Positions 2,989 to 30,225 of a stretch of DNA of 64,000 nucleotides are shown in pieces (the first letter of the stretch is position 1; the number at the start of each line of letters is the position of its first letter). The stretch comes from Apostichopus japonicus (taxonomy: Eukaryota; Echinodermata; Holothuroidea; Aspidochirotida; Stichopodidae), in contig NC_092572.1 in the NCBI RefSeq assembly GCF_037975245.1, positions 310,001-374,000 on the forward strand, written 5' to 3'. The translations under genes and the position numbers were made by a program. The notes below the pieces were generated by a model, which worked only from the letters and a program-made list of their open reading frames with translations, had not been told where the DNA came from and did no database searches.

Positions 2989-5900
2989 ATAGTAGACTCT
3001 AGATTTGATAGTAGACACTAGCTTTCATAGTAGACTCTATAACCTTCAACTGTAGACACTATAGCCTTCCTAGCAGACATTAGCCGTTCCTAGTAGACAA
3101 TAGCTTTTATAGTAGACAGTAGCCTTCAAAGTAGACTCATATAGCCTTCAAGGCACTAAACTGCATAGCAGACACTAACCTTCCTATATAGCAGACACTA
3201 GTCGTTCTAGTAGACACTAGCCGTTCCTAGCAGACACTAGCCTTCATAGTAGACTCTATAGCCTTCAACTGTAGACACTAACCTTCATAGCAGACACTTG
3301 CCTTCATAGTAGACTCTATAGCCTTCAACTGTAGACACTAACCTTCATAGCAGACACTAACCTTCCCAGCAGACACATAACCTTCCTAGCAGACACTAAC
3401 CTTCCTAGTAGACTCATATAGCCTTCAACTGTAGGCACTAAACTGCATAGCAGACACTAACCTTCCTATATAGCAGACACTAGTCGTTCTAGTAGACACT
3501 AGCCGTTCCTAGCAGACACTAGCCTTCATAGTAGACTCTATAGCCTTCAACTGTAGACACTAACCTTCATATCAGACACTTGCCTTCATAGTAGACTCTA
3601 TAGCCTCAACTGTAGACACTAACCTTCATAGCAGACACTTGCCTTCGTAGTAGACTCTATAACCTTCAACTGTAGACACTGATCTTCATAGCTGACACTT
3701 GCCTTCATAGTAGACTCTATAGCTTTCAACTGTAGACACTAGCCTTCATAGCAGACATTCACCTTCAAAGCAGACACATTACCTTCCTAGCAGACACTAG
3801 CCGTTCCTAGTAGACAATAGCTTTTATAGTAGACAGTAGCCTTCAAAGTAGACTCTATAGCCTTCAACTGTAGACACTAGCCTTCCTAGCAGACACTAGT
3901 CGTTCCTAGTAGACAATAGCTTTTATAGTAGACAGAAGCCTTCAAAGTAGACTCACATAGCCTTCAACTGTAGGCACTAAACTGCATAGCAGACACTAAC
4001 CTTCCTATATAGCAGACACTAGTCGTTCTAGTAGACACTAGCCTTCCTAGCAGACACTTGCCTTCATAGTAGACTCTATAGCCTTCGACTGTAGACACTA
4101 ACCTTCATAGCAGACACTTGCCTTCATAGTAGACTCTATAGCCTCAACTGTAGACACTAACCTTCATAGCAGACACTTGCCTTCGTAGTAGACTCTATAA
4201 CCTTCAACTGTAGACACTGACCTTCATAGCAGACACTTGCCATCATAGTTGACTCTATAGCCTTCAACTGTAGACACTAACCTTCATAGCAGACACTAAC
4301 CTTCATAGCAGACACATAACCTTCCTAGTAGACAATAGCTTTTATAGTAGACAGTAGCCTTCAAAGTAGACTCATATAGCCTTCAACTGTAGACACTAAC
4401 CTTCATAGCAGACACTTGCCTTCATAGTAGACTCTATAGCCTTCAACTGTAGACCCTAGCCTTCCTAGCAGACACTAGCCGTTCCTAGTAGACAATAGCT
4501 TTTATAGTAGACAGAAGCCTTCAAAGTAGACTCACATAGCCTTCAACTGTAGGCACTAAACTGCATAGCAGACACTAACCTTCCTATATAGCAGACACTA
4601 GTCGTTCTAGTAGACACTAGCCTTCCTAGCAGACACTAGCCTTCATAGTTGACTCTATAGCCTACAACTGTAGACACTAACCTTCATATCAGACACTTGC
4701 CTTCATGGTAGCCTCTATAGCCTCAACTGTAGACACTAACCTTCATAGCAGACACTTGCCTTCGTAGTAGACTCTATAACCTTCAACTGTAGACACTGAT
4801 CTTCATAGCTGACACTTGCCTTCATAGTAGACTCTATAGCCTTCAACTGTAGACACTAACCTTCCCAGCAGACACTTGCCTTCATAGTTGACTCTATAGC
4901 TTTCAACTGTAGACACTAGCCTTCATAGCAGACACTAACCTTCATAGCAGACACTAACCTTCATAGCAGACAAATTACCTTCCTAGCAGACACTAGCCGT
5001 TCCTAGTAGACAATAGCTTTTATAGTAGACAGTAGCCTTCAAAGTAGACTCTATAGCCTTTAACTGTAGACACTAACCTTCATACCAGACAATTGCCTTC
5101 ATAGTAGACTCTATAGCCTTCAACTGTAGACACTAACCTTCCTAGCAGACACTAGTCGTTCCTAGTAGACAATAGCTTTTATAGTAGACAGAAGCCTTCA
5201 AAATAGACTCACATAGCCTTCAACTGTAGGCACTATACTGCATAGCAGACACTAACCTTCCTATATAGCAGACACTAGTCGTTCTAGTAGACACTAACCT
5301 TCCTAGCAGACACTAGCCTTCATAGTTGACTCTATAGCCTTCAACTGTAGACCCTAGCCTTCCTAGCAGACACTAGTCGTTCCTAGTAGACAATAGCTTT
5401 TATAGTAGACAGAAGCCTTCAAAATAGACTCACATAGCCTTCAACTGTAGGCACTAAATTGCATAGCAGACACTAACCTTCCTATATAGCAGACACTAGT
5501 CGTTCTAGTAGACACTAGCCTTCCTAGCAGACACTAGCCTTCATAGTAGACATTATAGCCTTCCTAGCAGACACTAACCTTCATATCAGACACTTGCCTT
5601 CATAGTAGACTCTATAGCCTCAACTGTAGACACTAACCTTCATAGCAGACACTTGCCTTCGTAGTAGACTCTATAACCTTCAACTGTAGACACTGACCTT
5701 CATAGCAGACACTTGCCTTCGTAGTAGACTCTATAGCCTTCAACTGTAGACACTGACCTTCATAGCAGACACTTGCCTTCATAGTTGACTCTATAGCCTT
5801 CAACTGTAGACACTAACCTTCATAGCAGACACTAACCTTCATAGCAGACACATAACCTTCCTAGTAGACAATAGCTTTTATAGTAGACAGTAGCCTTCAA

Positions 5901-8900
5901 AGTAGACTCTATAGCTTTCAACTGTAGACACTAACCTTCATAGCAGACACTTGCCTTCATAGTAGACTCTATAGCCTTCAACTGTAGACCCTAGCCTTCC
6001 TAGCAGACACTAGCCGTTCCTAGTAGACAATAGCTTTTATAGTAGACAGAAGCCTTCAAAGTAGACTCACATAGCCTTCAACTGTAGGCACTAAACTGCA
6101 TAGCAGACACTAACCTTCCTATATAGCAGACACTAGTCGTTCTAGTAGACACTAGCCTTCCTAGCAGACACTTGCCTTCATAGTAGACTCTATAGCCTTC
6201 GACTGTAGACACTAACCTTCATAGCAGACACTTGCCTTCATAGTAGACTCTATAGCCTCAACTGTAGACACTAACCTTCATAGCAAACACTTGCCTTCGT
6301 AGTAGACTCTATAACCTTCAACTGTAGACACTGACCTTCATAGCAGACACTTGCCTTCATAGTTGACTCTATAGCCTTCAACTGTAGACACTAACCTTCA
6401 TAGCAGACACTAACCTTCATAGCAGACACATAACCTTCCTAGTAGACAATAGCTTTTATAGTAGACAGTAGCCTTCAAAGTAGACTCTATAGCTTTCAAC
6501 TGTAGACACTAACCTTCATAGCAGACACTTGCCTTCATAGTAGACTCTATAGCCTTCAACTGTAGACCCTAGCCTTCCTAGCAGACACTAGCCGTTCCTA
6601 GTAGACAATAGCTTTTATAGTAGACAGAAGCCTTCAACTGTAGACTCACATAGCCTTCAACTGTAGGCACTAAACTGCATAGCAGACACTAACCTTCCTA
6701 TATAGCAGACACTAGTCGTTCTAGTAGACACTAGCCTTCCTAGCAGACACTTGCCTTCATAGTAGACTCTATAGCCTTCGACTGTAGACACTAACCTTCA
6801 TAGCAGACACTTGCCTTCATAGTAGACTCTATAGCCTCAACTGTAGACACTAACCTTCATAGCAAACACTTGCCTTCGTAGTAGACTCTATAACCTTCAA
6901 CTGTAGACACTGACCTTCATAGCAGACACTTGCCTTCATAGTTGAATATAGCCTTCAACTGTAGACACTAACCTTCATAGCAGACACTAACCTTCATAGC
7001 AGACACATAACCTTCCTAGTAGACAATAGCTTTTATAGTAGACAGTAGCCTTCAAAGTAGACTCATATAGCCTTCAACTGTAGACACTAACCTTCATAGC
7101 AGACACTTGCCTTCATAGTAGACTCTATAGCCTTCAACTGTAGACCCTAGCCTTCCTAGCAGACACTAGCCGTTCCTAGTAGACAATAGCTTTTATAGTA
7201 GACAGAAGCCTTCAAAGTAGACTCACATAGCCTTCAACTGTAGGCACTAAACTGCATAGCAGACACTAACCTTCCTATATAGCAGACACTAGTCGTTCTA
7301 GTAGACACTAGCCTTCCTAGCAGACACTAGCCTTCATAGTTGACTCTATAGCCTACAACTGTAGACACTAACCTTCATATCAGACACTTGCCTTCATAGT
7401 AGCCTCTATAGCCTCAACTGTAGACACTAACCTTCATAGCAGACACTTGCCTTCGTAGTAGACTCTATAACCTTCAACTGTAGACACTGATCTTCATAGC
7501 TGACACTTGCCTTCATAGTAGACTCTATAGCCTTCAACTGTAGACACTAACCTTCATAGCAGACACTTGCCTTCATAGTTGACTCTATAGCTTTCAACTG
7601 TAGACACTAGCCTTCATAGCAGACACTAACCTTCATAGCAGACACTAACCTTCATAGCAGACAAATTACCTTCCTAGCAGACACTAGCCGTTCCTAGTAG
7701 ACAATAGCTTTTATAGTAGACAGTAGCCTTCAAAGTAGACTCTATAGCCTTTAACTGTAGACACTAACCTTCATACCAGACAATTGCCTTCATAGTAGAC
7801 TCTATAGCCTTCAACTGTAGACACTAACCTTCCTAGCAGACACTAGTCGTTCCTAGTAGACAATAGCTTTTATAGTAGACAGAAGCCTTCAAAATAGACT
7901 CACATAGCCTTCAACTGTAGGCACTAAACTGCATAGCAGACACTAACCTTCCTATATAGCAGACACTAGTCGTTCTAGTAGACACTAACCTTCCTAGCAG
8001 ACACTAGCCTTCATAGTAGACTCTATAGCCTTCAACTGTAGACCCTAGCCTTCCTAGCAGACACTAGTCGTTCCTAGTAGACAATAGCTTTTATAGTAGA
8101 CAGAAGCCTTCAAAATAGACTCACATAGCCTTCAACTGTAGGCACTAAATTGCATAGCAGACACTAACCTTCCTATATAGCAGACACTAGTCGTTCTAGT
8201 AGACACTAGCCTTCCTAGCAGACACTAGCCTTCATAGTAGACATTATAGCCTTCCTAGCAGACACTAACCTTCATATCAGACACTTGCCTTCATAGTAGA
8301 CTCTATAGCCTCAACTGTAGACACTAACCTTCATAGCAGACACTTGCCTTCGTAGTAGACTCTATAACCTTCAACTGTAGACACTGACCTTCATAGCAGA
8401 CACTTGCCTTCATAGTAGACTCTATAGCCTTCAACTGTAGACACTAACCTTCATAGCAGACACTTGCCTTCATAGTTGACTCTATAGCCTTCAACTGTAG
8501 ACACTAACCTTCATAGCAGACACATTACCTTCATAGCAGACACATAACCTTCCTAGTAGACAATAGCTTTTATAGTAGACAGTAGCCTTCAAAGTAGACT
8601 CTATAGCTTTCAACTGTAGACACAAACCTTCATAGCAGACACTTGCCTTCATAGTAGACTCTATAGCCTTCAACTGTAGACCCTAGCCTTCCTAGCAGAC
8701 ACTAGCCGTTCCTAGTAGACAATAGCTTTTATAGTAGACAGAAGCCTTCAAAGTAGACTCACATAGCCTTCAACTGTAGGCACTAAACTGCATAGCAGAC
8801 ACTAACCTTCCTATATAGCAGACACTAGTCGTTCTAGTAGACACTAGCCTTCCTAGCAGACACTAGCCTTCATAGTTGACTCTATAGCCTTCAACTGTAG

Positions 8901-9790
8901 ACACTAACCTTCATATCAGACACTTGCCTTCATAGTAGACTCTATAGCCTCAACTGTAGACACTAACCTTCATAGCAGACACTTGCCTTCGTAGTAGACT
9001 CTATAACCTTCAACTGTAGACACTGATCTTCATAGCTGACACTTGCCTTCATAGTAGACTCTATAGCCTTCAACTGTAGACACTAACCTTCATAGCAGAC
9101 ACTTGCCTTCATAGTTGACTCTATAGCTTTCAACTGTAGACACTAGCCTTCATAGCAGACACTAACCTTCATAGCAGACACATTACCTTCCTAGCAGACA
9201 CTTGCCTTCATAGTAGACTCTATAGCCTTCAACTGTAGATACTAACCTTCACAGCAGACACTTGCCTTCATAGTTGACTCTATAGCCTTCAACTGTAGAC
9301 ACTAACTTTCATAGCAGACACTTGCCTTCATAGTAGACTCTATAGCCTTCAACTATAGACACTAACTTTCATAGCAGACACTTGCCTTCATAGTAGACTC
9401 TATAACCTTCAACTGTAGACACTAACCTTCATAGCAGACACTTGCCTTCGTAGTAGACTCTATAACCTTCAACTGTAGACACTGACTTTCATAGCAGACA
9501 CTTGCCTTCATAGTAGACTCTATAGCCTTCAACTGTAGACACTAACCTTCATAGCAGACACTTGCCTTCACAGTTGACTCTATAGCCTTCAACTGTAGAC
9601 ACTAACCTTCATAGCAGACACTAACCTTCATAGCAGACACATAACCTTCATAGCAGACACTGACCTTCCCAGCAGACACATAACCTTCCTAGCAGACACT
9701 AACCTTCCTAGTAGACACTAGCCGTGCTAGTAGATACTAGCCTGTCATTGCAGATACTAGCCTTACATTGTATACACTATAGCCTTTTAT
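2989..9790. repeat. 6.8-kb hierarchical satellite array of about 20-bp units
   Basis: The whole stretch is built from 19-21-bp units of the type CTTCATAGCAGACACTAAC. Subunit variants include a form with TGTAGACACTAAC, a form with GTAGACTCTATAG and a form with CTTTTATAGTAGACA. The variants follow each other in a fixed order, so a higher-order repeat exists. The rare marker TTCGACTG lies at 4084, 6198 and 6777 (spacing 2,114 and 579). The markers CATACCAGAC (5081 and 7772) and GCCTCTATAG (4711 and 7402) both recur after exactly 2,691 bp. At the right end (about 9,180-9,790) the order becomes simpler and the units decay. Short frames inside are repeat shadows. No spacer diversity of the CRISPR kind is present. 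Confidence 0.95.
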
Positions 9791-11039
9791 TTATACATGA
9801 TTCAATGTTCAAGTCTTCATGGTATTATCTTACAATTGTGTTCACCTGAGCAACCAAAAGGCCTCGTCTTACCACTCGCAGTACGGGCGGTTACTTGTAG
9901 GATATCAACATAATGAACATATTAGCGCCAAGGTGTGGCAGGGATTCATGGTAGTGGTAATGACGCACTTGTACTTGACCATTTTAGACTTGCTGTAGGA
10001 GACACACCAACAAGTTTTGTACTAGGGAGTGGGAGAGAGAGTTAATATGTTATGATATCGGAGGGAGGGGCTAAGGATATTGGTATACCCTCCTCTCTGA
10101 GAAATCTTGGTAAAAGGGAAGTTGCTTATATGGTGATCTTAGTCTAGAACAATATTGAAGAGTTTACTAAACATACATAGTTAGGTAATGTACTCAACTA
10201 CAGTTTTTTCTGTTTTTGTAATATTTTGTGTGCCAGTGCGTGAGGGAGGGGCGGAACTAAGGGGGTGGCGGAGGCAAAGTGTGCAGAAATGTATTTAGTG
10301 TCGCTCTTGATTTCTGGCTTAGGATATTTTGACAATTCGAAATCTGAACACGATAATGTCGCTTTTAAAGCAGTATGCAAGTACAGACTATATGCTATTT
10401 ACAAAACACAATTCAGTGTTGTGGAAAACATGCCGTAGTGGTACTAGTCAGTGGGATAAAGTAGGAAAATTGGATCGCCAAATTAAGAAGAAAGTTTGTT
10501 GTAATAGACCTATTAACTACAGACAGCATCGGAATGTCATTTAGCAAAATACCCCAACGCATTCCTTCCCCCACCCTGCCTCATTACTTAACCTAATGAT
10601 GATCGACAGTCGCAGAACAACCGTTTTACTCCTCCATTAATGGTAGTAAATATGAAGGATAAGTTTATTTTCTGCATTCACAACAGACTATACATATTAA
10701 CTATATTAGTGCCCACATATGAAAGAAATTGCACATCCACCACAAAATGGTAAACGGAATATTACTCTTATGTCTTAATATAACCTAACACTTGACGTTC
10801 CTTTTGTATTGTCAAAGATCATCAGTATTGGCATGCTAACAATTGCTAGAGGTTTACCAAAGTATGTCCTGAGACTTTGAACCTCCTTCCTATAGCATTG
10901 AAAATCTCAGGATGCGTAAATTCCTTTACACTGGCAGTTAAAATGCTGTTGAAATGTGAGGATGGAAGACCATTAAGCATGACTATCTAGTATATTTGAG
11001 GAAAACACGGATGAGTACAAACATTAATCATAGAAAACT
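9791..11039. other. Intergenic, nothing supported
   Basis: No coding segment with plausible splice sites or domain-like composition is visible. The short open frames near 10.2-10.5 kb overlap each other on both strands and look random. A G-rich stretch at about 10,225-10,280 may be the edge of an old mobile element, but no terminal repeats could be paired. Confidence 0.5.
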
Positions 11040-11456
11040 CAGTGTGAAAATAGCAAGTTATTCTGATTGAAAAATGAAATGTGTTCTTCTTCAAAGCACC
11101 ATGTTGAAAAGTTGTAAAGCTTACTTGGGCGTGTAATTGTTGCAACCATTACTGCCCATAGAAGCGCCCATTTAACGTCCCCATCCGACGGACAGGATTG
11201 TACCTCCGCACCAGACCACTCTCTCAAGTTCTGAGGGAGGTGAAGGCACCCACTATGAATCATCATCATTGCAGCGCAGATATTTTGAACGAAGTTGTTT
11301 TGAAACTATCGAAAGAACAGAAACACAACTCTTCTCAGCAACACTGCAAAGCAGCAATTTTGAATAGGTGTAGAGAATTTGTTTTGACGAGGATTTAACC
11401 CAGGAACCTTATAACTGCGGGCGGACACTGTAACCATTACGCCACACCATTACCTT
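11040..11456 (-). mobile_element. tRNA-derived SINE
   Basis: On the minus strand the segment beginning near 11,455 reads like a tRNA head: an A-box-like TGGCGTAATGG followed about 40 nt later by a B-box-like GGGTTAAATCC. These are the two internal RNA polymerase III promoter elements. A body of about 350 bp follows, containing TCGGATGGGGACGTTAAA near 11,170-11,195, a motif that I associate with animal SINE bodies. The exact 3' end and the target duplication were not found, so the boundaries are approximate. It is unlikely to be a working tRNA because the acceptor arm and anticodon arm cannot be folded convincingly. Confidence 0.5.
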
Positions 11457-11521
11457 TCAAAATGATGACAATTCCCTAGAATAGAAGTTATGACGTATGA
11501 TTTCACCTTCCAAACTATGGG

Positions 11522-11916
11522 CTGCAATATGCATGTTGAAATGAAAGAACAAGTGGAGTGTGTTTCTAGTGCATGTAAGTGTGAGCTGGAAGATATATAT
11601 CTGCAATATGCATGTTGAAATGAAAGAGCAAGTGGAGTGTGTTACTAGTGCATGTAAGTGTGAGGTGGAAGATATGTATCTGCAATATGCATGTTGAAAT
11701 GAAAGAACAAGTGGAGTGTGTTTCTAGTGCATGTAAGTGTGAGGTGGAAGATATGTATCTGCAATATGCATGTTGAAATGAAAGAACAAGTGGAGTGTGT
11801 TACTAGTGCATGTAAGTGTGAGGTGGAAGATATGTATCTGCAATATGCATGTTGAAATGAAAGAACAAGTGGAGTGTGTTACTAGTGCATGTACGTGTGA
11901 GCTGGAAGATATGTAT
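11522..11916. repeat. 79-bp minisatellite, five copies
   Basis: Units starting CTGCAATATGCATGTTGAAA lie at 11,522, 11,601, 11,680, 11,759 and 11,838, an exact 79-bp period with only a few substitutions between copies. The high identity points to recent expansion or homogenisation. Confidence 0.95.
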
Positions 11917-12882
11917 CAAGCCAAGCCGAAGATCTTTTACAACGTCAGTCAGTCAATTTGTATTTGTAAGCTAAATAGATTAGGGTTTTATTTGATAGCC
12001 TTATAGGACACAACCTCCAGCCACTCACAAGCCATAAGTATTTTTTGACCAAACTTTGAAAATCCAGAAAGACTTTTTAAGTCTGAAAGATTTCTTCAAT
12101 ATTATTTCGTCAATAATGTCATGACAGAACGTGTCATGAATTGTCACGTATTTGTCCAAGAAACCCCTGGTGCAGATTATAGCACTCTTACACATATCTT
12201 GCTGATAACAAGTCCTACGGTATGTTATATTGCAACAGCTAGAAGATCTCCATCTGACATGAAGAAGTAGTTTTATCCTTTACTGAAAAATGCCATTTTC
12301 TTCTAAATTTCAACCGGTTGTACTGAAATTGTCTACTTTTATCGGAAAATGTCGACTTTTGTCATTTTATTTCAAAGTTTAGTTTAGCATCTAACATTAA
12401 CGAAAGTTCGAAATAAACTGTTGAATAATTTCGGTGGTTCAACAGAATTTCAACTTTCTATATAACTTTAGCGGAAAGGGTCTTTCGACGGACTAAGGAG
12501 AATATAAAACATAGACTTAATTATTTGACAGTTCGCGGTCAATTTCCACGTCCGGAATTGAAGAAAGTGTTGATTTTAAAAAGCCCCCCCCCCCCCCCAG
12601 CCCATCCCAAACGTCAAAAAAGGTTAAATTTGACCAGATTTGTGCAAAAAGAAGGAATGATTCACAAGTTTTAAACAACCTTCAAACTGATGGACTTCGT
12701 AATTGATGGATATTAGTTATGTTTTATATCTGAGCATTTCTTAATACTTTTATATGCGAATAACACGATCTTGTGAATGTAGATATAATAATGTTAATGT
12801 TTAAACAATATTAAGATCTACTTTTCTGAAATCTGTGCAAATGGTTAGATATAATATATCAAATATCTTTTTGCTGCAGTTA
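11917..12882. other. Intergenic, nothing supported
   Basis: AT-rich DNA with a poly-C run at about 12,585-12,598. No gene, RNA or paired terminal repeat is seen. Confidence 0.5.
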
Positions 12883-13107
12883 TTACCACTTATGCGCGTC
12901 GGTAGCTCGTTGATAGGCGGACATGACATCTGATATGAAATCGTGTAACAGTCTTTTTGTGTATTGTTGTTTTCTAGCCGCCACGTCAACACTGTAACGG
13001 TGTTTCTCTATGCCGTAACATGGATGCCACTTACAGCAGCAGGTGCGTAGCTTCCAAGTTGAACGAGAGAAGAGTAACAGCCACAGGGGTCTTATTTTCA
13101 CAAACAT
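12883..13107 (-). CDS. Hypothetical small secreted peptide precursor
   Basis: A 74-codon minus-strand frame starts MFVKIRPLWLLLF, a short basic then hydrophobic start like a signal peptide. It contains four clustered cysteines, a dibasic KR at about residue 52, and ends in a 22-residue tail with HDFISDVMSAYQ. Those are features of neuropeptide or hormone precursors in general, but no family is recognised and the similarity may be chance. A GTAAGT inside the frame (after residue 24 or so) could also be a splice donor. It lies just upstream of gene A on the opposite strand. Treat it as a candidate only. Confidence 0.15.
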   Translation of the reverse strand: MFVKIRPLWLLLFSRSTWKLRTCCCKWHPCYGIEKHRYSVDVAARKQQYTKRLLHDFISDVMSAYQRATDAHKW

Positions 13108-13400
13108 CTTCCGTTTGTTAAATTTCTGGGAGGATGATGTTGTGAATTATTACAATTAATTTATGTAGAATTTTATTATGGTAATATGGTCTTAATAATG
13201 TATATTGTCGAAGATTCCTGTCTTTGTTGTGTACTTGAAAGTATTTGATTCTTATGCAACGCTTACGTTGAAATAATGTATGTGTGTCTCTTAACATGTC
13301 ACAACACAATCTGATTGTACTTTGACTTACTACAGATAAGGAAGTGTGTGTTTGTAATGTTTATAGCTGTGTTATTGCTGTTTCTTACTATTCGTTACAG
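13108..13400. other. Intergenic, nothing supported
   Basis: AT-rich sequence with no supportable feature, ending in a polypyrimidine tract and acceptor (TTCGTTACAG) for the candidate exon that follows. Confidence 0.5.
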
Positions 13401-13475
13401 AGTTGTCGCCAGCCTCACCAACGAACAAGGTTTCGATCACTCAAGAAAGCCAGGCGAATCAGCCGCATGATACAT
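13401..13475 (+). CDS. Possible upstream exon of gene A (linker)
   Basis: A 75-nt open segment follows a good acceptor (TATTCGTTACAG) and ends at a weaker GTAATT donor. It enters and leaves in phase 1, which matches the phase needed at 14,421. The encoded stretch (LSPASPTNKVSITQESQ...) is polar and Pro/Ser-rich, as in linkers before Ig domains. No signal-peptide exon was found upstream, so the 5' end of the gene is missing or lies before this point. Confidence 0.35.
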
Positions 13476-14420
13476 GTAATTTATCAAATCGATTCCATTT
13501 GATTGTGTGTGCCAGTAGATCAAAGAATGTGTTCTAGATTGATTTTAATAAGGACTAAAAAGATGCTTGGTTTGCCGGGGTGGGGTGGATGTATCCTCAA
13601 CATTACACTAGGGCGATGATCGATGTAATCAACCCCCCGCCATCTCCAATGTTATGGATTTGAGTGTGCCAGAAAGTAAATTTCTCCACATGAAAAATTA
13701 TGATTAATTAGTGATAATTAAAGATGCGTTTTAATTTTTGAACAACATTACAAGATCGGTGGAATAGTGATGCACATTTTACTAGGAATGACCCATGTCA
13801 TCATCTGTACCATGTTATAGATAGACCCTAATAAAGTTGATATCGCTAGAAAGCTACACAGATGTGAATACTGTAATGTACGTGGATATGTCGCCATGAC
13901 TGTGCCTTATGTAGCTCGCTAGAGTTGGTCCTATCACTGCCCTTTGGTAAGCCGTATTTGGAGACTGTTAACGGAATTAACGCGAATTATTACAAATATC
14001 TTCAGATGGAAGTTGGATATTTTCTTTTCCACACCTTAAATGTGAAAATTTTGTGTGATTCATGTGAGGCAAAAGAGCAAAAAGAATCATCTCCAAGTTG
14101 CACCAGTTTGCTTTATTAAATATCTCGATTGTCAAAATTGCTGACAGAGGAGGGGGACACCCAGTGCAGCAGGGAGCTATCAAATGGTAAGGGTGCAGTA
14201 TAATGAGGAAAGTGATATGAGGAGGGAGAAATCGTTTATTAAAAGATTTGAAAGATTAAAAGGTTTAATGCGTGTCGTAGGTTACTACAACCCCCCCCCC
14301 CTCCTTCCCCTACCTCTTACTTTTGTAATTTGTTAGCTGATGGGAGGCTAGAGCTAGATTGATGATGCTGGCCCAATGATCCAGCACAGTATATGACCAA
14401 TTGCTCTTCTTTTATACAAG

Positions 14421-14699
14421 GTATGATAAATAAGAATGGATCCCACCAATCCATTCTTTCTGGCACTTCAACTAACTTAACGTGTTGCATTAACAACACT
14501 AACACGTCCTTATGGTGGTTCAACAACAAGATAGTTTACTATGGACGACATGCTACCGGTACTGAACATAACTTGAATGTGACACTGGATGAAGAATATA
14601 CACGACTGCACATCATCAACAGTACTACAAATAATACAGGGGAATATATGTGTGCTCTCGGAAATAAAACTATTTCAACCTATTACATCGATGTTAGAG
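14421..14699 (+). CDS. Gene A exon: Ig domain 1
   Basis: This is a phase 1-1 exon of 279 nt, the standard symmetrical form for a single Ig domain. The B-strand cysteine is in NLTCC, the core tryptophan in LWWFNNK, and the F-strand motif is NTGEYMCALG. At least five NxS/T sequons suggest heavy N-glycosylation. The acceptor is TCTTCTTTTATACAAG and the donor GTAAGT. The frame reads on into the intron until 14,791, which is not coding. Confidence 0.88.
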
Positions 14700-17600
14700 G
14701 TAAGTTTGTGAATATGTCTACTTGTTATGCATCTTCCAAATCTCAAAATCATCATCTCTGGTATCATTATGAATCTCCAGATTCGTTATAAGTAAAATAG
14801 TATTAGTGATTCTACAGTATTGCATAAAAATCATGCGTTTACAATCTCAATATGGGAACGTGATGTCATATGACAACGGTATGCAATAATTGAGCATTAC
14901 ATGTCCTTTAATACCCTGTAAGGTATGCAATAACTGATCATTACATGTTCTTTATTATCCTGTAAGGTATGCAGTAACTGAGCATTACATGTTCTTAACT
15001 GTCCAGTAAGGTATGCAATAACTGAGCATTACATGTCCTTTACTATCCTGTAAGGTATGCAATAACTGATCATTACATGCTCTTTACTATCCTGTAAGGT
15101 ATGCAATAACTGATCATTACATGTTCTTTACTATCCTGTAAGGTATGCAATAACTGAGCATTACATGTTCTTTACTATCCTGTAAGGTATGCAATAACTG
15201 ATCATTACATGCTCTTTACTATCCTGTAAGGTATGCAATAACTGATCATTACATGCTCTTTATTATCCTGTAAGGTATGCAATAACTGAGCATTACATGG
15301 TTTTCTACTATCCTGTAAGGTATGCAATAACTGAGCATTGCATGTTCTTTACTGTCTTGTTTTCATTTCCAGTGCCCATCTCAAAGCTATATCTTGAAGT
15401 TGACTGGTATTATTATATCATCTGTTTCGGGGACCAGCAGCCAACAGAGCCGTTTGTATGGAGAATCGATGGAGAAATTGTTATTAACGACAGTTATGAA
15501 ATTATATATAATACTTCAGAAGGCTCTGTTAATGCATCTGTTTTAATTTTTCCACGGGGCATTCCCAATACAACAGTCACGTGCGAACACGGAAGTGTAT
15601 CAGTTTCGAAAAACCTAGGTGAAAAAACAGGTACGGTAATACCTATTAACGTTTTATGCTAACGAGGAAGTACATAGTAATAATGTAGCAAAACAATCTT
15701 GATTACCTATTAAGTAAATGTAATGATGTTCAAATCTAGAATGAAACTACGTTTAGATAGTAATAACAAAAATAAGATGCAAATTGTATTATATCGCTAC
15801 ACTAAATCAGTTTGCGTAAAAATTGCTTGGTTAATAGTGCATGTAACTTTGGATTGCTGCTAAACCTTGTTCTACCTTCCCTTGTTCATTGTTATGCCAT
15901 TATGTGGTGGACAAAGCGTATAAGTGAGAACAATAAGTAAATGTGATAAAAAACTCTTTGCTAATATGGTAGACCATGAAATGGCGAGTACCAATTTGCA
16001 GATAGTCAAGTAGACCGTCTACTAGACAAAGCCAATCAAAAAAGTTATATAGAAAGCTCGTTACGCAGTAAGAATGAAAACTGGCTTCACATTGTTAAAA
16101 AGAAAAGGACCACATATATTAAAAAAAGGCTCGACTTTTATAAGATCCTAAACTGCCAAAAATTATAAACTGCCAAAAATTATGAACGCAGAGTACGATC
16201 CTCCCCTGTCTGAGGAATGAGGGTGATAACACTACGTGACTGTTCATGCATGGAGAGAATAGACTGACTTTATAGTACTAATTATCCAACCAGCAGATCG
16301 GTTGTTCCAGAGCTTTGAGCTTTTACCATTAGAAATAGAATTGGAATGAATGTAGTTGATTTTTTACGGCTTTCTAAATTTAGAAAGTATTGTGTATTCT
16401 TTCCCACCCATCTTGCCCTAGAGAGAATAATAATTATACATTGTAAAACTTGTTGATACAAGTTCGTTCCTTGCAATGGCTGAACTAAAATTATTAATTT
16501 CTAAGGATTATGTTGCCCGATAATCTTTCCCTAACATTGACTTAATTTGAGCAATTATGAGATTTATTTTAGTTTTCTGCTTCCAGCGTATTTTTTTTTG
16601 TTCGCGGAAAGCTTAGGAAGCAAAACGAATTTTGCATTAAATAATCTCCCGTTTCAAAGAAGAATTCTTAAACTTGATAGTAAGAATAAGCGGAGTTTAC
16701 TCGTCATTTTAAGGAAGACGTGAAAAATTAAATAATAATCTAATAATAACCGTGAATAATCTAATAATAACAACAATAATAATAATAATAACGACTAAGA
16801 CTTACTTCCGCTTAAAATGACCGAATTACTATTCGTTAGAGATAATGTTGATGTATTCGACACAGCCGATGAAGGTTTATTCGACAACTGTTTACGTATT
16901 ATAGTCCCTTGTTTTGACATGCATAGCACATGTAGTGATATTTAAAGAAATTAATGGTGGTATTACCCACCACCTGAGGGAGGGGAGGCGGGAATGATTA
17001 TATTCAAATTAGTGAACAGGTTGTAACAACAGACATAGTAGGTGTGGGAGTTCCAGTTTGTTTCGGCTCGTTCATACAAAAGTTCATTTTCACGCAGGTA
17101 ATAGCTAGTTGATGTTCGTACATCATATGATAACATAGTCTGAACAATTCAGGTTTTAAGTACAGAAGCTTACGTGTGTTAATGGGTAACATTTACATGT
17201 AATCAACAAGTCATCACCACGTTCATATTATGTTGTCATGGACGGAAGTCTGATTCCTCGCACCTCAAAGACGAACACTCTCTTTGCTTGTTTCTTACAG
17301 CAACTGTACAAACAAAAGGAGAAAGCGCTTTAGAAAACATTTGGGTGATTGTGGCTGGTGTTGTCGGGTGCATTTCCAGTTGCCTGTTAGTTTGTGCTTG
17401 TTTCAAAGTCAGGAAATTTAGATGTAGGTATACGCATTGTACAAACAGTTGAACTTCAATATTATTGAAATTTAACGTTTCTTTGTTTGAAAAAAGAAAA
17501 AGTCAGGTTTCTATTAGTTTACCAAATTTAAAGATATATGAACAAATGTTAACAAACATAATCCCGAGGTGGACATAGAAAGTCAGGTTTGGATAACATT

Positions 17601-20600
17601 GGTTATTTTTTTCATTGGTATCTTCTATAAATAATGAGCACAGTGTAGTAAAATGAAAGTTCATGCATGAGGCAGAACGAAAGTGTTACCATTTCACAGT
17701 CCTATGATTTAGATATCATATAGTAAGTTTGTTCAATGACCTCGACAATTTACGATTCTGACATTGGATTTATATATTATTTCATACATTAGATAAAGAA
17801 GGCGAATGACATGGTGGGGAGGGTGGGGGGGCTTAAGCGAAGTAGAGGGTGCTGTTAAATCATTGTATATTACGCGTGCAGTAAATTGCTTAATTATGCA
17901 AAAGAATCAGCCAAGGAAACATCATTGTAGACCAGATTTCTACATCTAGTTAACAAACATTTTGAGGGAAATGATCATTTGAGATTTAGACATCGTGTTG
18001 TTATCTTATCGAGTTTTTTATAAAATCGATGGTCACTTTAGAAAGATTTAAATAATATGATGTATTCTTTCTCTCTTCGCTTACAGTGTCAAGAAACCGA
18101 CGAGGGTGAGTTTGGAGCATAGCATATTGTACTGATTGTGACATGTGAACAGCTCCACTCACACCAACCCTCTCCCCCATCCCTCATCTTTCCTGAACCC
18201 AGTCCCGACATTATTTACTACAATTATGATTATCGAATATCTTCACCGTATATAAGACAGCCAATAGAGTTGTTTACATTGATGACACCAAATGTGAATT
18301 TTATTGTTTACTTCAATTTTCTTTCCTTTTGGTTTAGAAACCAGAGTAGCAGCTCAAGTCATCCAATGAAAGTACTTGATAAAGGACCCTTAGATATCAA
18401 TCAATCAAGTAAGGGATATTTTGATTTCAAATCATAATTTAAATAAGAGTGTTCACATAATACCCTGTACAGGATCCATATTGAATTACATAATAGTGCT
18501 TTGAACTGGTACCTTATTGTCATGCTAAATACATTTTAATATATGACACATTAATATGACACAATAATAAGACACATTAATAAGACACGTTAATAAGACA
18601 CATTAATAAGATTGGCATTACAGTATTTTTTTTACTAAAATCAATTTTGAATATTACAACAAAAAACGTTCTGTATTTCATTGGTATTATTTCATGTTGC
18701 TGTACTACAGTCACATGCAGAACTTTATACTCACTATATTCAAGCATTAAAACAAAGATATGTTTACTAAATATTGCATTTTAACGGAAGTTATATACCT
18801 GTTGCATCAAAGTTTTTCTTACCTTGCAATACTTGAACAAAAACGAAAACAATTATAGAGAAATGAATTTACCAAAATATTTACTTCATTTACAGTCAAT
18901 GAAAAAGTAGGAAGGTAAGCTTTAATTATCAATTTACTCTAGCTTTGGAATTGAGTGTATATTTAAATGCTTTAATTATATTGATTTCGAAAATAGCAGA
19001 TAACTTTACTTATCAGTAATGACAAGGTGTATAATGTTGCTAATACTCTCTTGGTATGCATTATCATGAAAGGTCAGAGTTCATTTCGTCGTTTATTTCT
19101 GTTGAAGGAAAGAATTACCAGAGATACCTGTTGACGAGGACAACTCACAGAACTCGCACCATTCTGAAGGAAGTGAACCTAGTAAGTTTACTCAAAATAA
19201 ATCTATTTATGACGAAATGAATCAATGAAGGCATAAACGAAACTACAACATTACCACACACCCTAATTATAGCCCAGAGTACGTATAACAGAGTACGTAT
19301 AGAGAGCCGTTAAAACATTACAATAAGAAGATAAAGTTCAAATTATTTATATACTCACAAATTACGTTTTATAAGTTATTTTAATTCATAAATGTCCTCC
19401 CAAAGAGAATCAATAACCATAATCATATTATATAGCTACCTTTGTTAAATCTGACCTACAACACACACCTTTGGTCTAAATTACTATAGGTAACGGTCTG
19501 TATTCGTGATGTATGTTTCCTTTATGAGTCTTAATTTATTGGCAGATTACTATACAGCAGATGTGATTACAGGAAAAGATCCCCGGATGTTGAGTGAGAA
19601 AGATATTTCCATCATCATGAATATCAAGATGGGAAAAATCTACAAACGATGGATGGGATCTGTCAATTTGGCTGAGGAGGCCAATAAGTGTGTTGTAATA
19701 ACAACACTGACAGGTTGGTGATAACAAATATCTATAATCCAAGGCTGATGTTAGCTTCATAGTCATATATTGATGCAGCCAATTAAAACTTACAGGTGTC
19801 TTCATCGCTTTGTTGTATTCGACAACTCGGTGTCTCGAATGGTAATTCCTCTCATATTTTATATGAATTAAATATTAAACTTATATTAAGTGACCTTGTG
19901 CAACATTTCGATAAATAAATGTTAACACGCTTTTATTTATAACTGACCTTTTTCTGTATTTTTTCAGAAAAGCTCATTAGAAAGAAAGCAATTCATTGGG
20001 AGGCTTTCATCAGGAAATGTCTCGAATTGCCAGCATCGAACCATCTAGCAAAGATAGAGGCTATATCTATCCAAAGCAGTGAGTTGTTATTGTCCTTTTA
20101 CATGTTTTAAGAACGTACTAATGGGAAAAGGTGGAACGTGCATCTAATTGTTTTCATTAAAAGTGCCAAGTTTATTACGATAAAGTTCTCATGGACTATC
20201 TGTAGCCGACAAGATCTTCTGATCAAGTCAATAATCATTCTATATTGTCCGAACAGGACTAAATCAGGGATTACATTAACAGAGATAATAATTCGAATTG
20301 ATAATTAAGCTAGCCAGTTTTCATTGCGATTAGAATCATATTAAATTTCAATATTGATGGAGATTTATCTGTTGTAATCTAACTTTGATTTCTTCTATTG
20401 TTTTAGGTAAACTGTTTCTTATTAGTGAGCATCTCAATTGTGAAAGTCTGCATAGCGTCTTGTCACGTGATACTAAAGATAAAGGAGACTACTATTGTTG
20501 TAGTTCATTGTCAGTTCCTGACGTCATCAAACACGTAGCTGGAGTTTTGGAAGGAATGGACATCCTTAAGACATTCGGGGTAAGAAATGTAAAACTTGCC

Positions 20601-23141
20601 TAAGTTATCAGCTAAATATTATTGTTTATTTAGTCCTATATCATCAGATCAACCTCATCACTGTTTGTGGTAAAGTTGCTAATCTTATCTAACAGTTCTG
20701 TAAACAAACAAGTTTTCAGTCAAACACAAAGGTATAAGTGAGACAATTGTGTCTCTTAATGATGGAATAACTGCTTAACTTATTGGTTTTCATATTCTGT
20801 CAGTTCCTTCACCCTGGCTTAACAACCAAAAAGGTTTTACTAACCAAGGAAGGGCAGGTCAAATTATTTGACTTCTGTCTGGCCGGCGATGCACCAAAAA
20901 TAGCTGCTCTTAAGAAAGCACAGGTAAATTACTCAATTATTAATCGACCCTGTTATGACCTTGTTCTTCGTCTGTTTAATCATTATAGTTATTTATTTAC
21001 TTCATTACTTGTACTGTCGTCATAATTAGAATTTTATTTTTTAAAAGGTAATGGAGTCTAAGATGTAAAACTTTATTTAGATCATGCAAAAATAAAAGCA
21101 AAAACGAACAATAATCCAACTGAATCGCTTGTTCTCTTGGAGTTTTGGTATATTTTTGTGGATTTCATAACACAAGTACATTATGATTGTATTAATAGAA
21201 AGCTCTTTAAATTTCAATATCATACATGTACCACTCTAAATTGTTTTTCACAAATGCAATTCAAAATTCTTCGTAATTCAAAACACTGCTTTATCATGAT
21301 CACAACTTTTCAACATCCCATAGCACAATTGGATTATTTTCTAATATAAATTATCATCATTTCGATTTAAGAAATCAAAAATCAGTTGTGAGTCTATTAA
21401 AGTGTACAATTGTAGATTAGTATAACCTGAATAAAATATTAATATATTAACAAAATAAATTACTTGTGTTTGTCATAAATTACTTTTTCTTTTACAGATT
21501 TCTACGGTAACTTTGAACCAATTTCCACCTGAAATGTTACTGTTGAGTCAGTATACAGAATCCAGTGACGTGTGGTCTACAGCAGTAGTAATATGGGAGA
21601 TTATGGCAGCTGGTAAAGAAATTTAATAATAACGAAATAATTGTAGCATATAATGTAGCGTGTGATAACAAAATATGTTGCATACTATAAAAGAAAACTA
21701 CAGCAATTACAAAACCAATAAGTAATTTCACATTTTATTAGTACATTCAATTTGATTGACATGTACACTACTAATAAATATACATCAGAGATAACTCAAG
21801 TTTTTAATTTCAGTTAATCCTAAGTAACGTGAATAATTACAGTATTTTTTAGGAAGAAACATTTAAATATTCTATATATAAAATCAACTTATAATAATAC
21901 TCTATAGAGACACCTAGATATATTGTACATAACATACCATTGATTGCAATCCAGTACCAAATTGTAAAATCACAAAATGCTGCTCTTAGATGTATTTAAG
22001 GTTAGTTAACTAGAAAAAGAGACATGAACATCATTTAAGACTTTGTTGTCTGAAATTAGGTACAGCATCTTTAACAATTGGTAGTATCATGAATAAAGTG
22101 AATGCAAGAAGGAAATAGTAGAGTTTGACAACATTCATGACAGACACTCAGCTGTACAAATGTGTTAAAAGCGTGAAAACCTTGGGGTTATCTCAATTCA
22201 CAAGTTGGATATACATAATAGTTTCGATGTTTCTACACTCGCACATCTGTTAGGGAACCCACCATTTCCTGTGGACAAAGAAGTTAGATTTGGCGAAGAA
22301 GCGGTCACACCATCAGTACCCTGGCCGGAGAGGTACTTGCAGATAAAGTAAGATGTCAATCCCTAAATGTCCCTTTCATTATATAAGTGCCCGAGTAAAC
22401 ACATTCCATACTAGTTGAAGCCGGTTTGTTATTCGTTCTGTATTTTTACTATTTGAAAAACAAATATTTTACAATTATTGTAGGTTGTGCAACAATTAGA
22501 CAGTGTATGCGAGTTTTGTAGATAGATTTGAAACGTTAATATAATAAAGTTATTGTGGACTACTTATTTATACTTAAGTCTACATAGGTTACTATGAATG
22601 GACATTTTAGTATCTAAAGGAGCGCTGACTTGTTTGTTTCAAGGTACTTTCATCCAAGTAAGTGCTACCTTTGTCACTTTACTTTTAGCTATGTAATTCT
22701 CATTGATATGTAAAACGTCGAAAGTGTCCAGTATTTAACCAAGTAATAGCTTCACAATTTCTATTGGAAAATCTTACAAGAAAAAATGATTATGAAAGTA
22801 AAACTTACTAAATGTGTCTGTTAGTATAACACTTCTTGTTTCATTTATACACTTAAACATATACAATAATACACTACATCTGCTGATTCACTATTAGTAC
22901 TGATTTCTTAATCATTTGCAGAGATAAAGTATTGTTCGATTGCTGGAACCATAACTGTTCTCTTCGACCTTCGATTCATCAACTGAGGGGAACATTCGTA
23001 GCAGTAAGTAATTTAATATTCATTTTAGAACAGTTATCAGCCACCATTACGTGTCCGAATGTGGTATTATTAGCATTGTTACACATGCACAATGAAGGAA
23101 CTTCTCTCCTAGAGAGTATTAGAGACTTGAGAGTAGATTAA
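14421..23141 (+). CDS. Gene A: Ig-domain receptor with tyrosine pseudokinase domain (5' partial)
   Basis: Fourteen exons join with phase preserved throughout: 14421-14699, 15373-15630, 17301-17423, 18087-18105, 18338-18408, 18896-18914, 19108-19181, 19546-19713, 19968-20078, 20407-20579, 20804-20923, 21498-21612, 22254-22347 and 22922-23141 (stop). Together they code for about 613 residues: two Ig domains, one transmembrane helix, a hydrophilic juxtamembrane segment and a kinase-like domain. The fold landmarks of receptor tyrosine kinases are present (SSDVWSTAVVIWEI for the helix F region, DCWNHNCSLRPS for the C-lobe arginine). The catalytic ones are changed: VAVK is VVIT, HRDLAARN is HPGLTTKK, DFG is DFC and APE is PPE. 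Such a domain should not transfer phosphate by the usual mechanism, so a binding, scaffold or decoy role is inferred. The N-terminus and signal peptide are not seen. A GTAAGT at 23,004 could end the last exon earlier. Confidence 0.85.
14878..15360. repeat. 44-bp intronic minisatellite
   Basis: About eleven copies of a 44-bp unit starting GGTATGCAATAACTGAGCAT fill the intron between the two Ig exons of gene A. Copies alternate mainly between TGAGCATT and TGATCATT. The array stops 12 bp or so before the acceptor of the next exon. Because the unit contains GTATGCA it carries a weak donor-like string each time. Confidence 0.93.
15373..15630 (+). CDS. Gene A exon: Ig domain 2
   Basis: A second phase 1-1 exon, 258 nt, follows the acceptor TTTTCATTTCCAG. 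It has the cysteine in YIICFGD, the tryptophan in FVWRIDGE and the second cysteine in TTVTCEHG. Three NxS/T sequons are visible. The Ig hallmark D-x-G-x-Y-x-C is not kept here (TTVTC instead), so this is a divergent domain. The donor is GTACGG. Confidence 0.85.
15661..17300. other. Gene A intron; AAT-rich microsatellite, nothing else supported
   Basis: The intron between Ig domain 2 and the membrane exon. It holds an imperfect (AAT)n tract at about 16,730-16,795. No further Ig-like exon was found: the open frames seen here lack splice sites and cysteine/tryptophan spacing. Confidence 0.55.
17301..17423 (+). CDS. Gene A exon: transmembrane segment
   Basis: A 123-nt phase 1-1 exon codes a short extracellular stalk, then a hydrophobic helix of about 23 residues running from NIWVIVAG to LVCACF, then the basic stop-transfer KVRKFR. 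The donor chosen is the GTAGGT at 17,424. It keeps phase with the two next exons, whereas GTATAC four bases later would not. Confidence 0.82.
18087..19181 (+). CDS. Gene A exons: juxtamembrane region with two 19-nt microexons
   Basis: Four small exons (18087-18105, 18338-18408, 18896-18914, 19108-19181) join in phase to give a basic stretch (LSRNRRGNQ), a serine run, and an acidic, His/Ser-rich tail (VDEDNSQNSHHSEGSEP). Two exons are only 19 nt. Each is framed by a good acceptor and a GTGAGT- or GTAAGC-type donor. The phase chain 1-2-1-2-1 agrees with both the membrane exon before and the kinase exon after, which supports these otherwise small calls. Confidence 0.7.
18540..18612. repeat. Short 17-bp tandem repeat in gene A intron
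   Basis: Four to five imperfect copies of TAATAAGACACATTAA-type units lie in the intron between two juxtamembrane exons. Confidence 0.8.
19546..23141 (+). CDS. Gene A exons: tyrosine-kinase-like domain lacking catalytic residues
   Basis: Seven exons encode the domain. N-lobe: a degenerate glycine loop (MGKIYKRWMGSV) and VVITTLT where VAVK should be. Hinge: LFLISEHLNCESLHSVL, followed by a short insert with YYCC. C-lobe: VAGVLEGMDILKTFG, then FLHPGLTTKKVLL at the catalytic loop, VKLFDFCLAGD at the magnesium loop, QFPPEMLL at the APE site, then well-kept DVWS and CW...RPS motifs. Exon borders are clean and the frame is open throughout, so the changes are in an intact reading frame and not in a decaying pseudogene. 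The last exon reads past a GTAAGT to a stop at 23,139-23,141. Confidence 0.85.
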
Positions 23142-23523
23142 GAGTTTTACCAAGCTGTTGATTGTAGTGTAAACAGTAGTTCATAGAGTCTATCCTAATC
23201 CTGCTTCATTGAGCATTCCTTAATGGCATCATGTTCAATCTCCGCTTTCAAATTGAAATCCAAGGTTAGGGAATGAAGTCGAGAAGAGAATATTTAGTGA
23301 GGTTTAGTTTATATGGTATTGATTGCAACCGAGCTAAAGCATTATGACAACTAAACCAATATGGAAACGCGTAATATAATTCATATAATTTTATGATTTA
23401 ACAGAGAAAACTGCCACAGATTTACTGAAGTAAAACGGCTTTTATTCACAATAAAGTTCTTATGTTGACCATCATGATGTACCATGTCACGTGTAAAAAG
23501 AACGATGTAACTGAATATGTAGC

Positions 23524-23825
23524 TTAACGTTAAGAAGTGTATATAAATAATCGATGATGGATAGTTGTAATAATACAGCAGTATCATGTTACCAGCTTGC
23601 CGTTAGGCAGTGTGATAATAATAATATTTAATGGAATGTTGTAATTATATAGCAGTGTCATATTACCAGCTTAACGTTAGGCAGTGTGTGTAATAATAGT
23701 TTATAAACGATAGTTGTTATTATACAACTGTCTCATATCACCAGCTTAACGTTTGGAAGTTTCTGTAATAATAATCGATAATGAATAGTTGTAATTATAC
23801 AGCTGTCTCGTATAACCAGCTTAAA
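23524..23825. repeat. 75-bp degenerate minisatellite
   Basis: Four to five diverged copies of a unit with ACCAGCTTAACGTTAGGCAG lie downstream of gene A, at 23,591, 23,665, 23,740 and 23,815 (period about 75). Copy identity is clearly lower than in the other arrays, so it is older. Confidence 0.85.
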
Positions 23826-23877
23826 GTGATTCACAAAAATGTTCATATCTAACTTATTTATGATTTCTCTTGATTTG

Positions 23878-23963
23878 AAAAACATGCACATAATACAGAC
23901 AGGTTAATGAGCACGGTGTGCTCACCGTGCTTATTAACCAGTCTGTATTCTGTGCATGTTTTT
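23878..23963. repeat. Near-perfect palindrome, 41-bp arms
   Basis: Arms 23,878-23,918 and 23,923-23,963 are complementary with three mismatches around a 4-nt loop. The transcript would fold to a long hairpin. It directly precedes a sequence with CTGAAGAAGATCC and GGATCGAAAC (about 23,998-24,030), a motif pair I associate with the 3' parts of Penelope-like or other retroelements. Confidence 0.85.
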
Positions 23964-24115
23964 GTCCCTTCTGTTACTGTTACTTGTCATTTAGCCTCTG
24001 AAGAAGATCCTACTAGGATCGAAACATCAGGCCAACTTACTTTTACACATTCTATTACACAGGCTCTCCTAGTGGATAAGCAGTTTGCTAACAGTTTTAT
24101 TTAGTTTAAGTTTAT
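23964..24115 (+). mobile_element. Possible retroelement 3' remnant (CTGAAGA...CGAAAC motif)
   Basis: CTGAAGA at about 23,998 and CGAAAC at about 24,021 flank a perfect 5-bp stem (GATCC/GGATC). This resembles the core of a hammerhead-type ribozyme as found in Penelope-like elements, but with one extra base next to the stem, and I could not pair stems I and III. The frame through it ends ...EEDPTRIETSGQLTF.... Element borders are not resolved. Confidence 0.3.
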
Positions 24116-24603
24116 TTATGATTTCTCTATATTTTATTTTACCTTTAATGTAAAGAAGGTCTGTAAAGTCAGTTCATGCAACGTTATACATGTTATTTAG
24201 CATTTATGTTTTGATAGTATCTTGCAAAAGTCCCGCATTATCCCTTAACAGATATTTGAGAAATTAATCGCGGACAGCTCTTACGAGATACCGATACCTA
24301 CGACGTATTTACCTATGAGAACCCCTGATACCGCTCAACCTACCTATGCAGAACAAATCTACCATGCTGGAGTGTGAACTGGGTATGACTAGGATCTAGT
24401 ACTGGTGATTTGTAATCGCTACGAAACCTCAAGATTCCCTGAAGCTACGGGAGCTATACACATATATACCATATTATAGAGTACAACAGTGTGTCAAATA
24501 TGTGCTTATCGGCTGTCATTATTGATCCCTACTTCGGCGAGATCACATGATAGTATAACAGTGTTAACCTCCGCAATTAAATATTCATCATGTACGGTAG
24601 TAG
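24116..24603. other. Intergenic, nothing supported
   Basis: No gene, repeat or structural feature could be supported between the palindrome region and the LTR. Confidence 0.5.
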
Positions 24604-29769: not shown

Positions 29770-30225
29770 TTGGTCTTTCCAATCGCTACATAGGCCTATG
29801 GGTCTGAGACGTGGGCTCTTGGAGCAGTAGACAGAAAGAAAATCCATGCTTTTGAAATGTGGTGTTGGAGGAGGATGCTGAGGATATCATGGAAGGAACG
29901 TAAGTCAAATGATTTTGTCAAGTACCAAATTGGAGCGATGGTCACCTTATGTCAGAAGATAGATAGGAACAAGCTGCAGTATTTTGGACACATTTCTAGG
30001 AGAGAAGGTGACAACTTTGAGAAGATCATTATCCAAGGTCATGTTGAGGGTCAACGAAAACGTGGTAGGCCAAAAGTTCGATTTGCTGACGGAATAAAAG
30101 AGATCACCGGCATGAACATCTGCGCAGCTCACCGATATGCCCAGGATAGAAGTGGTTGGAACGTCATCATCAATAGGGTCACAAAGGGTCAGTCATGACT
30201 CATAGGACGACAACGACGACGACGC
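29770..30225 (+). mobile_element. LINE 3' fragment (C-terminal domain of another non-LTR family)
   Basis: An open frame (29,857-30,198, extending back to about 29,795 after a stop) encodes YGSETWAL, FEMWCWRRMLRISW, LQYFGHISRREG and GQRKRGRPKVRFADG. This is the classic C-terminal part of endonuclease/reverse-transcriptase polyproteins seen widely in invertebrates. The end is followed by an (ACG)n-like tail at about 30,207-30,225. The reverse transcriptase itself is missing, so it is a short 5'-truncated insertion. It differs from the 26.8-29.1 kb element. Confidence 0.8.

Follow-up and report, generated by a model that had tools for sequence, protein, structure and literature searches.

A gene that joins an Ig-type ectodomain to a tyrosine-kinase-like domain with altered catalytic motifs raises the question of whether it encodes a receptor pseudokinase retained for a non-catalytic role or a receptor in decay. 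Such a gene lies at 14421-23141 on the plus strand of the window, the 64-kb stretch of DNA analysed as a whole. With a little more than even confidence, it is read here as coding for an Ig-type receptor pseudokinase with a single membrane pass, which would serve an active partner as co-receptor or scaffold without catalysis of its own.

Splicing of 14 exons produces 613 open codons, and all 13 introns are GT-AG with compatible phases (Table 1). The first-pass annotation, which had reported a frame open over seven kinase exons, is borne out, and the seven exons upstream behave likewise. The donors (n=13) score 6.0-11.9 and rank 1-67 among the 927 GT sites of 10000-24500, and the acceptors are uneven (0.3-8.7), with the lowest two preceding 19546 (0.3) and 19108 (1.7); the scoring matrix was an unfitted one. 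The transmembrane exon needs donor 17423 instead of 17427 to keep the frame. The last exon may run on to a stop codon at 23139-23141 or end earlier, at the donor 23003, which scores 6.5 and ranks 58th among the 927 GT sites; the extra 135 bases of the longer form have a chance openness of 3.4%, estimated from 5122 intronic stretches. G+C is 0.40 in exons and 0.31 in introns. When the chance that each of the 14 exons stays open in its fixed frame is estimated from the gene's own introns, the product comes to about -19 in log10, a figure that takes the exons as independent and is uncorrected for their having been picked because they were open. Neither a signal peptide nor a start exon was found upstream of 14421, the four candidates listed there having donor scores of 3.4-4.6, compared with 6.0-11.9 for the accepted donors.

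Table 1. Predicted exons of the receptor gene and a tandem array within it (positions in the window)
Feature	Position	Strand	Basis or remark
Exon, Ig domain 1	14421..14699	+	Phase 1 at entry and exit; Pfam and PDB Ig matches
44-bp tandem array, 11 copies	14878..15360		Inside the Ig1-Ig2 intron; 483 of 673 intron bases
Exon, probable second Ig-like domain	15373..15630	+	Phase 1-1; Cys/Trp/Cys pattern from sequence
Exon, stalk and transmembrane helix (IWVIVAGVVGCISSCLLVCACF)	17301..17423	+	Hydrophobic stretch in translation; frame-keeping donor 17423
Juxtamembrane micro-exon, 19 nt	18087..18105	+	Spliced model
Juxtamembrane exon, 71 nt	18338..18408	+	Spliced model
Juxtamembrane micro-exon, 19 nt	18896..18914	+	Spliced model
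Juxtamembrane exon, 74 nt, ELPEIP motif	19108..19181	+	Spliced model; acceptor score weak, 1.7
Kinase exon 1: degenerate Gly-loop (NIKMGK), beta-3 VVIT (Lys to Thr)	19546..19713	+	Alignment; acceptor weak, 0.3
Kinase exon 2: alpha-C region, Glu ambiguous	19968..20078	+	HMM and MAFFT placements differ
Kinase exon 3: hinge, alpha-D, kinase insert with Tyr-Tyr (GDYYCC), alpha-E	20407..20579	+	Alignment
Kinase exon 4: HPGLTTKK (HRDLAARN), DFC (DFG), start of Tyr-free activation loop	20804..20923	+	Alignment and Pfam
Kinase exon 5: remainder of activation loop, PPE, SSDVWS, WEI	21498..21612	+	Pfam, exon alone
Kinase exon 6: exit phase 2, 7 residues ahead of CW cysteine	22254..22347	+	Spliced model
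Kinase exon 7: DCW...LRPS, then stop 23139-23141 or donor 23003	22922..23141	+	Spliced model

The predicted protein has the layout of a receptor tyrosine pseudokinase, namely an extracellular domain, a single transmembrane helix and an intracellular kinase-like domain. Its first Ig exon matches Pfam Ig_3 (E=1.4e-05) and I-set (E=9e-05), both under the curated bit cut-offs, and among PDB sequences it matches Ig V-type domains from E 5.3e-05, with T-cell receptor V domains at the top. The next exon (15373-15630) probably encodes a second Ig domain, judging from its Cys-Trp-Cys pattern and phase 1-1 borders. It matches no Pfam family, its best PDB sequence match has an E value no lower than 0.72, and its single-sequence AlphaFold model is all-beta (pLDDT 65.8). 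The juxtamembrane exons (18087-19181) form pairs of 19+71 and 19+74 nt with identical phases, so that skipping either pair would leave the frame unchanged; no sequence similarity is detectable between the two pairs.

Kinase homology and catalytic residues

The first-pass annotation had suggested aligning the spliced protein with the PF07714 profile. The kinase part gives E=5.3e-29 and 101.7 bits (cut-off 23.1) over profile positions 15-255 of 258, a match that excludes chance resemblance. Taken alone, the segment 21498-21611 exceeds the Pfam kinase cut-off (E=1.3e-06), and the exon 20804-20923 falls below it (E=0.0081). In a search of PDB sequences, the best 60 of 1356 matches are all receptor tyrosine kinases, with VEGFR1 and FGFR1 at 62 bits and ROR2, ALK and RET at 58; these 60 are headed by a two-domain EGFR chain because two stretches of it are summed. 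The N-lobe alone matched no kinase in the PDB, which indicates that the C-lobe carries most of the signal.

The catalytic motifs were read from an alignment with FGFR1, VEGFR2, ALK, ROR2 and a C-lobe fragment of PTK7, all taken from solved structures. In beta-3, VAVK has become VVIT, with Thr in place of Lys (VVITTL in exon 19546-19713). The exon 20804-20923 carries HPGLTTKK for HRDLAARN, by which the catalytic Asp is Gly and the loop Asn is Lys, together with DFC for DFG, in which Asp is kept and the glycine alone is changed. The Gly-loop retains one of its three glycines and is three residues shorter in the MAFFT alignment. The alpha-C Glu is ambiguous, as the HMM pairs its position with Glu and MAFFT pairs it with Phe. 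No tyrosine occurs in the activation loop from DFC to PPE or in the C-terminal tail as modelled, and Tyr-Tyr pairs are located at the juxtamembrane/kinase border (one) and in the kinase insert (one). The retained motifs comprise the Glu of PPE, DVWS, WEI, CW and RPS, of which PPE and DVWS lie in exon 21498-21612 and CW..N..LRPS in the exon from 22922. With essential catalytic residues substituted in this manner (Lys to Thr, Asp to Gly, Asn to Lys and DFG to DFC), the predicted identity of the protein as a receptor pseudokinase is well supported at the sequence level.

The unusual motifs listed by the first-pass annotation (VVIT, HPGLTTKK, DFC, PPE, DVWS and CW...RPS) were thus recovered where it had placed them, both in the located exons and in the alignment. 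Its account of altered catalytic positions stands for the Lys, the Asp, the Asn and the DFG glycine, but the DFG Asp is retained. Its treatment of PPE for APE as a mark of degeneration has to be dropped, since ALK chains in the PDB also read PPE.

In simulations of neutral substitution without indels (500 runs at each level), the spliced frame was still free of stops in 42% of runs at 1% divergence, 19% at 2%, 3.2% at 5% and none at 10%. The open frame thus points away from long drift, and a long-dead pseudogene is unlikely. The open frame, combined with replacement of the Lys, the Asp, the Asn, the DFG glycine and two Gly-loop glycines, fits a long-standing loss of catalysis under continuing selection. 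Recent silencing following an earlier pseudokinase phase would be compatible with the open frame as well. The first-pass annotation's suggestions of selection for a role as decoy or allosteric partner, and of a lineage-specific receptor, are conjectural.

Ancestry and comparison with known receptors

Ectodomain, C-lobe and intron agree in suggesting an origin in an Ig-type receptor tyrosine kinase. In BLASTP, the C-lobe scores highest with FGFR1 (33% identity, 71 bits) and VEGFR2 (31%, 70), followed by ALK (27%, 56), PTK7 (27%, 50) and ROR2 (24%, 49), and the whole domain gives 82 bits with FGFR1, 77 with VEGFR2, 71 with ROR2 and 69 with ALK; the values come from individual pairwise comparisons, uncorrected for composition, and do not amount to a tree. 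Over the whole domain ROR2 and ALK score not much lower than FGFR1 and VEGFR2, so that these pairs do not single out a parent family. FGFR and VEGFR receptors have Ig ectodomains, and the present protein resembles them in this feature, in its one transmembrane helix, in a C-lobe 31-33% identical to theirs and in a phase-2 intron near alpha-H. They are active, whereas the active-site Lys, Asp and Asn are lost here and the activation loop has no tyrosines; the ectodomain seen here also differs, with a single supported Ig domain and a second that is probable.

The last kinase intron (after 22347) is in phase 2 and lies seven residues before the CW cysteine, a position provisionally placed in alpha-H. 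Counted by eye, some 17 residues separate SVL from VPDVI in the alpha-D to alpha-E insert. The activation-loop methionine of longDE receptors is assumed to be the Met of KWM, in which case Phe stands at that position here. In the passages of PMC8662651 that define these clades, a phase-2 intron at alpha-H is a mark of longDE receptor tyrosine kinases, which also feature a long alpha-D to alpha-E insert and a characteristic activation-loop methionine, and the EGFR and Eph families belong to the shortDE clade. An intron in phase 2 close to the CW motif is in keeping with the longDE clade as described there.

Table 2 of PMC13259870 covers eight human receptor pseudokinases, of which PTK7, ROR1, ROR2, RYK and STYK1 keep the Lys, the HKD Asp and the Asn, and HER3 has lost the Asp and the alpha-C Glu. 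Only EphB6 and EphA10 among the eight lose Lys, Asp and Asn jointly. EphB6, EphA10 and HER3 are pseudokinases that belong, as the present protein would, to families that also contain active receptors; they differ in having other ectodomains, and all three retain GxGxxG (PMC13259870). Among the human receptors of that table, the pattern of catalytic loss seen here is nearest to EphB6 and EphA10, with the Gly-loop lost besides.

Among invertebrates, FLOR-1 of the C. elegans KIN-16 family is likewise a receptor pseudokinase in which the HRD Asp, the Asn and the Gly-loop are lost; its K/E pair is kept, its DFG Asp is lost and it has tyrosines near the activation loop (PMC10523662). The present domain, in contrast, has lost the Lys, kept the DFG Asp and has an activation loop free of Tyr. 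Receptor pseudokinases have several origins from active receptors. If expressed and conserved, an Ig-type receptor lacking Lys, Asp, Asn and the Gly-loop would add another case of independent origin, useful for asking which elements of the kinase fold persist for non-catalytic signalling.

Proposed role and rival explanations

The gene may descend from FGFR/VEGFR-like longDE receptor tyrosine kinases through loss of catalysis, and productive ATP use has probably been lost too. The Ig ectodomain would bind a ligand or a partner, placing the receptor beside an active relative, which in turn could phosphorylate tyrosines outside the activation loop, at the Tyr-Tyr pairs of the juxtamembrane/kinase border and the insert. 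The receptor would then work as a co-receptor or scaffold that has no catalytic part in signalling. The modes of pseudokinase action named in PMC13259870 are hetero-dimerisation, allosteric activation, trans-phosphorylation and scaffolding, and HER3 and EphB6 are among the precedents it offers. The active C. elegans receptor OLD-1 depends for its signalling on the pseudokinase FLOR-1; phosphorylation of FLOR-1 probably takes place near its activation loop, and of its tyrosines those near that loop mattered most (PMC10523662). By analogy, the Tyr-free activation loop here would count against a FLOR-1-like co-receptor model. Within the 64-kb window, tblastn found no second copy of the gene, and no candidate active partner was seen by Pfam, which covered this gene and 10 of the 196 ORFs of at least 60 aa, so that a distant kinase is possible.

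A tentative proposal is that the gene encodes a lineage-specific Ig receptor pseudokinase that arose independently from FGFR/VEGFR-like stock. Deprived of most of its ATP site and of activation-loop control, it would form a paired sensor with an active sister receptor in the manner of OLD-1 and FLOR-1 and would signal through insert and juxtamembrane tyrosines. The chief rival to the co-receptor or scaffold role, though a doubtful one, is a ligand sink or dominant-negative receptor, in which the Ig ectodomain would bind ligand or dimerise with an active receptor and block it, the kinase-like domain being a folded remnant. Loss of the catalytic residues, an activation loop without tyrosine and the 12 N-glycosylation sequons found by pattern in the part of the ectodomain seen would all suit such a molecule, but a pure sink would not need the retained C-lobe core, the insert Tyr-Tyr or seven in-frame kinase exons. 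It is unlikely that the locus is an unexpressed copy, recently silenced with its frame still unbroken, or the product of a faulty assembly or allele. That several near-invariant sites are changed and yet 613 codons stay open across 13 GT-AG introns argues against this explanation, as do the neutral runs at 5% and 10% divergence, although those at 1% and 2% are more lenient; the start exon and signal peptide not found, the two weak acceptors, the uncertain end of the last exon and the abundant tandem repeats nearby are what it has in its favour.

Membership in the PTK7/Otk (CCK4) or ROR pseudokinase families is very improbable. PTK7/Otk is an Ig receptor pseudokinase and ROR1/ROR2 are receptor pseudokinases with an Ig domain, so that an Ig ectodomain with a degenerate kinase is common ground, and the PTK7 and ROR2 kinases can be aligned with the domain; the C-lobe, however, scores 71 bits with FGFR1 and 70 with VEGFR2 against 50 with PTK7 and 49 with ROR2. 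In the entries of PMC13259870 for these receptors (motifs in its Table 2), PTK7 has seven Ig domains, VLVK, HKD, a retained Asn and ALG for DFG, and ROR has cysteine-rich and kringle domains, VAIK, HKD and DLG. Here, two Ig-like exons are present from 14421 on, Pfam matched no kringle, Frizzled or ROR cysteine-rich domain in the ectodomain over the same extent, and the motifs read VVIT, HPG, Lys for the loop Asn, and DFC. The C-lobe scores and the motifs thus support the first-pass annotation, which had set the protein apart from PTK7 and ROR. Some unusual residual kinase activity is hardly to be expected: the DFG aspartate is retained, and HER3 has weak activity (PMC10523662), but the domain no longer has the Lys, the catalytic Asp, the loop Asn or two of the Gly-loop glycines.

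Surrounding sequence

The window looks like part of an animal genome, since besides the spliced Ig/tyrosine-kinase gene it contains an ORF for reverse transcriptase and long tandem arrays. Upstream of the gene, a 6.8-kb minisatellite array with 19-, 41- and 60-bp units occupies 2989-9779. On the 3' side of the gene, a 41-bp inverted repeat (23878-23963), whose arms are 93% complementary and 4 nt apart, resembles a small fold-back element. Further along, the ORF at 27698-28006 matches the reverse transcriptase family RVT_1 (E 2e-16), the ORF at 29794-30195 resembles a LINE tail by eye but gave nothing in Pfam at E values up to 0.1, and the ORF at 34096-34461 matches DUF1647 (E 2.6e-07). A 109-bp tandem repeat of about 16 copies, with 98% matches, extends over 57745-59475.
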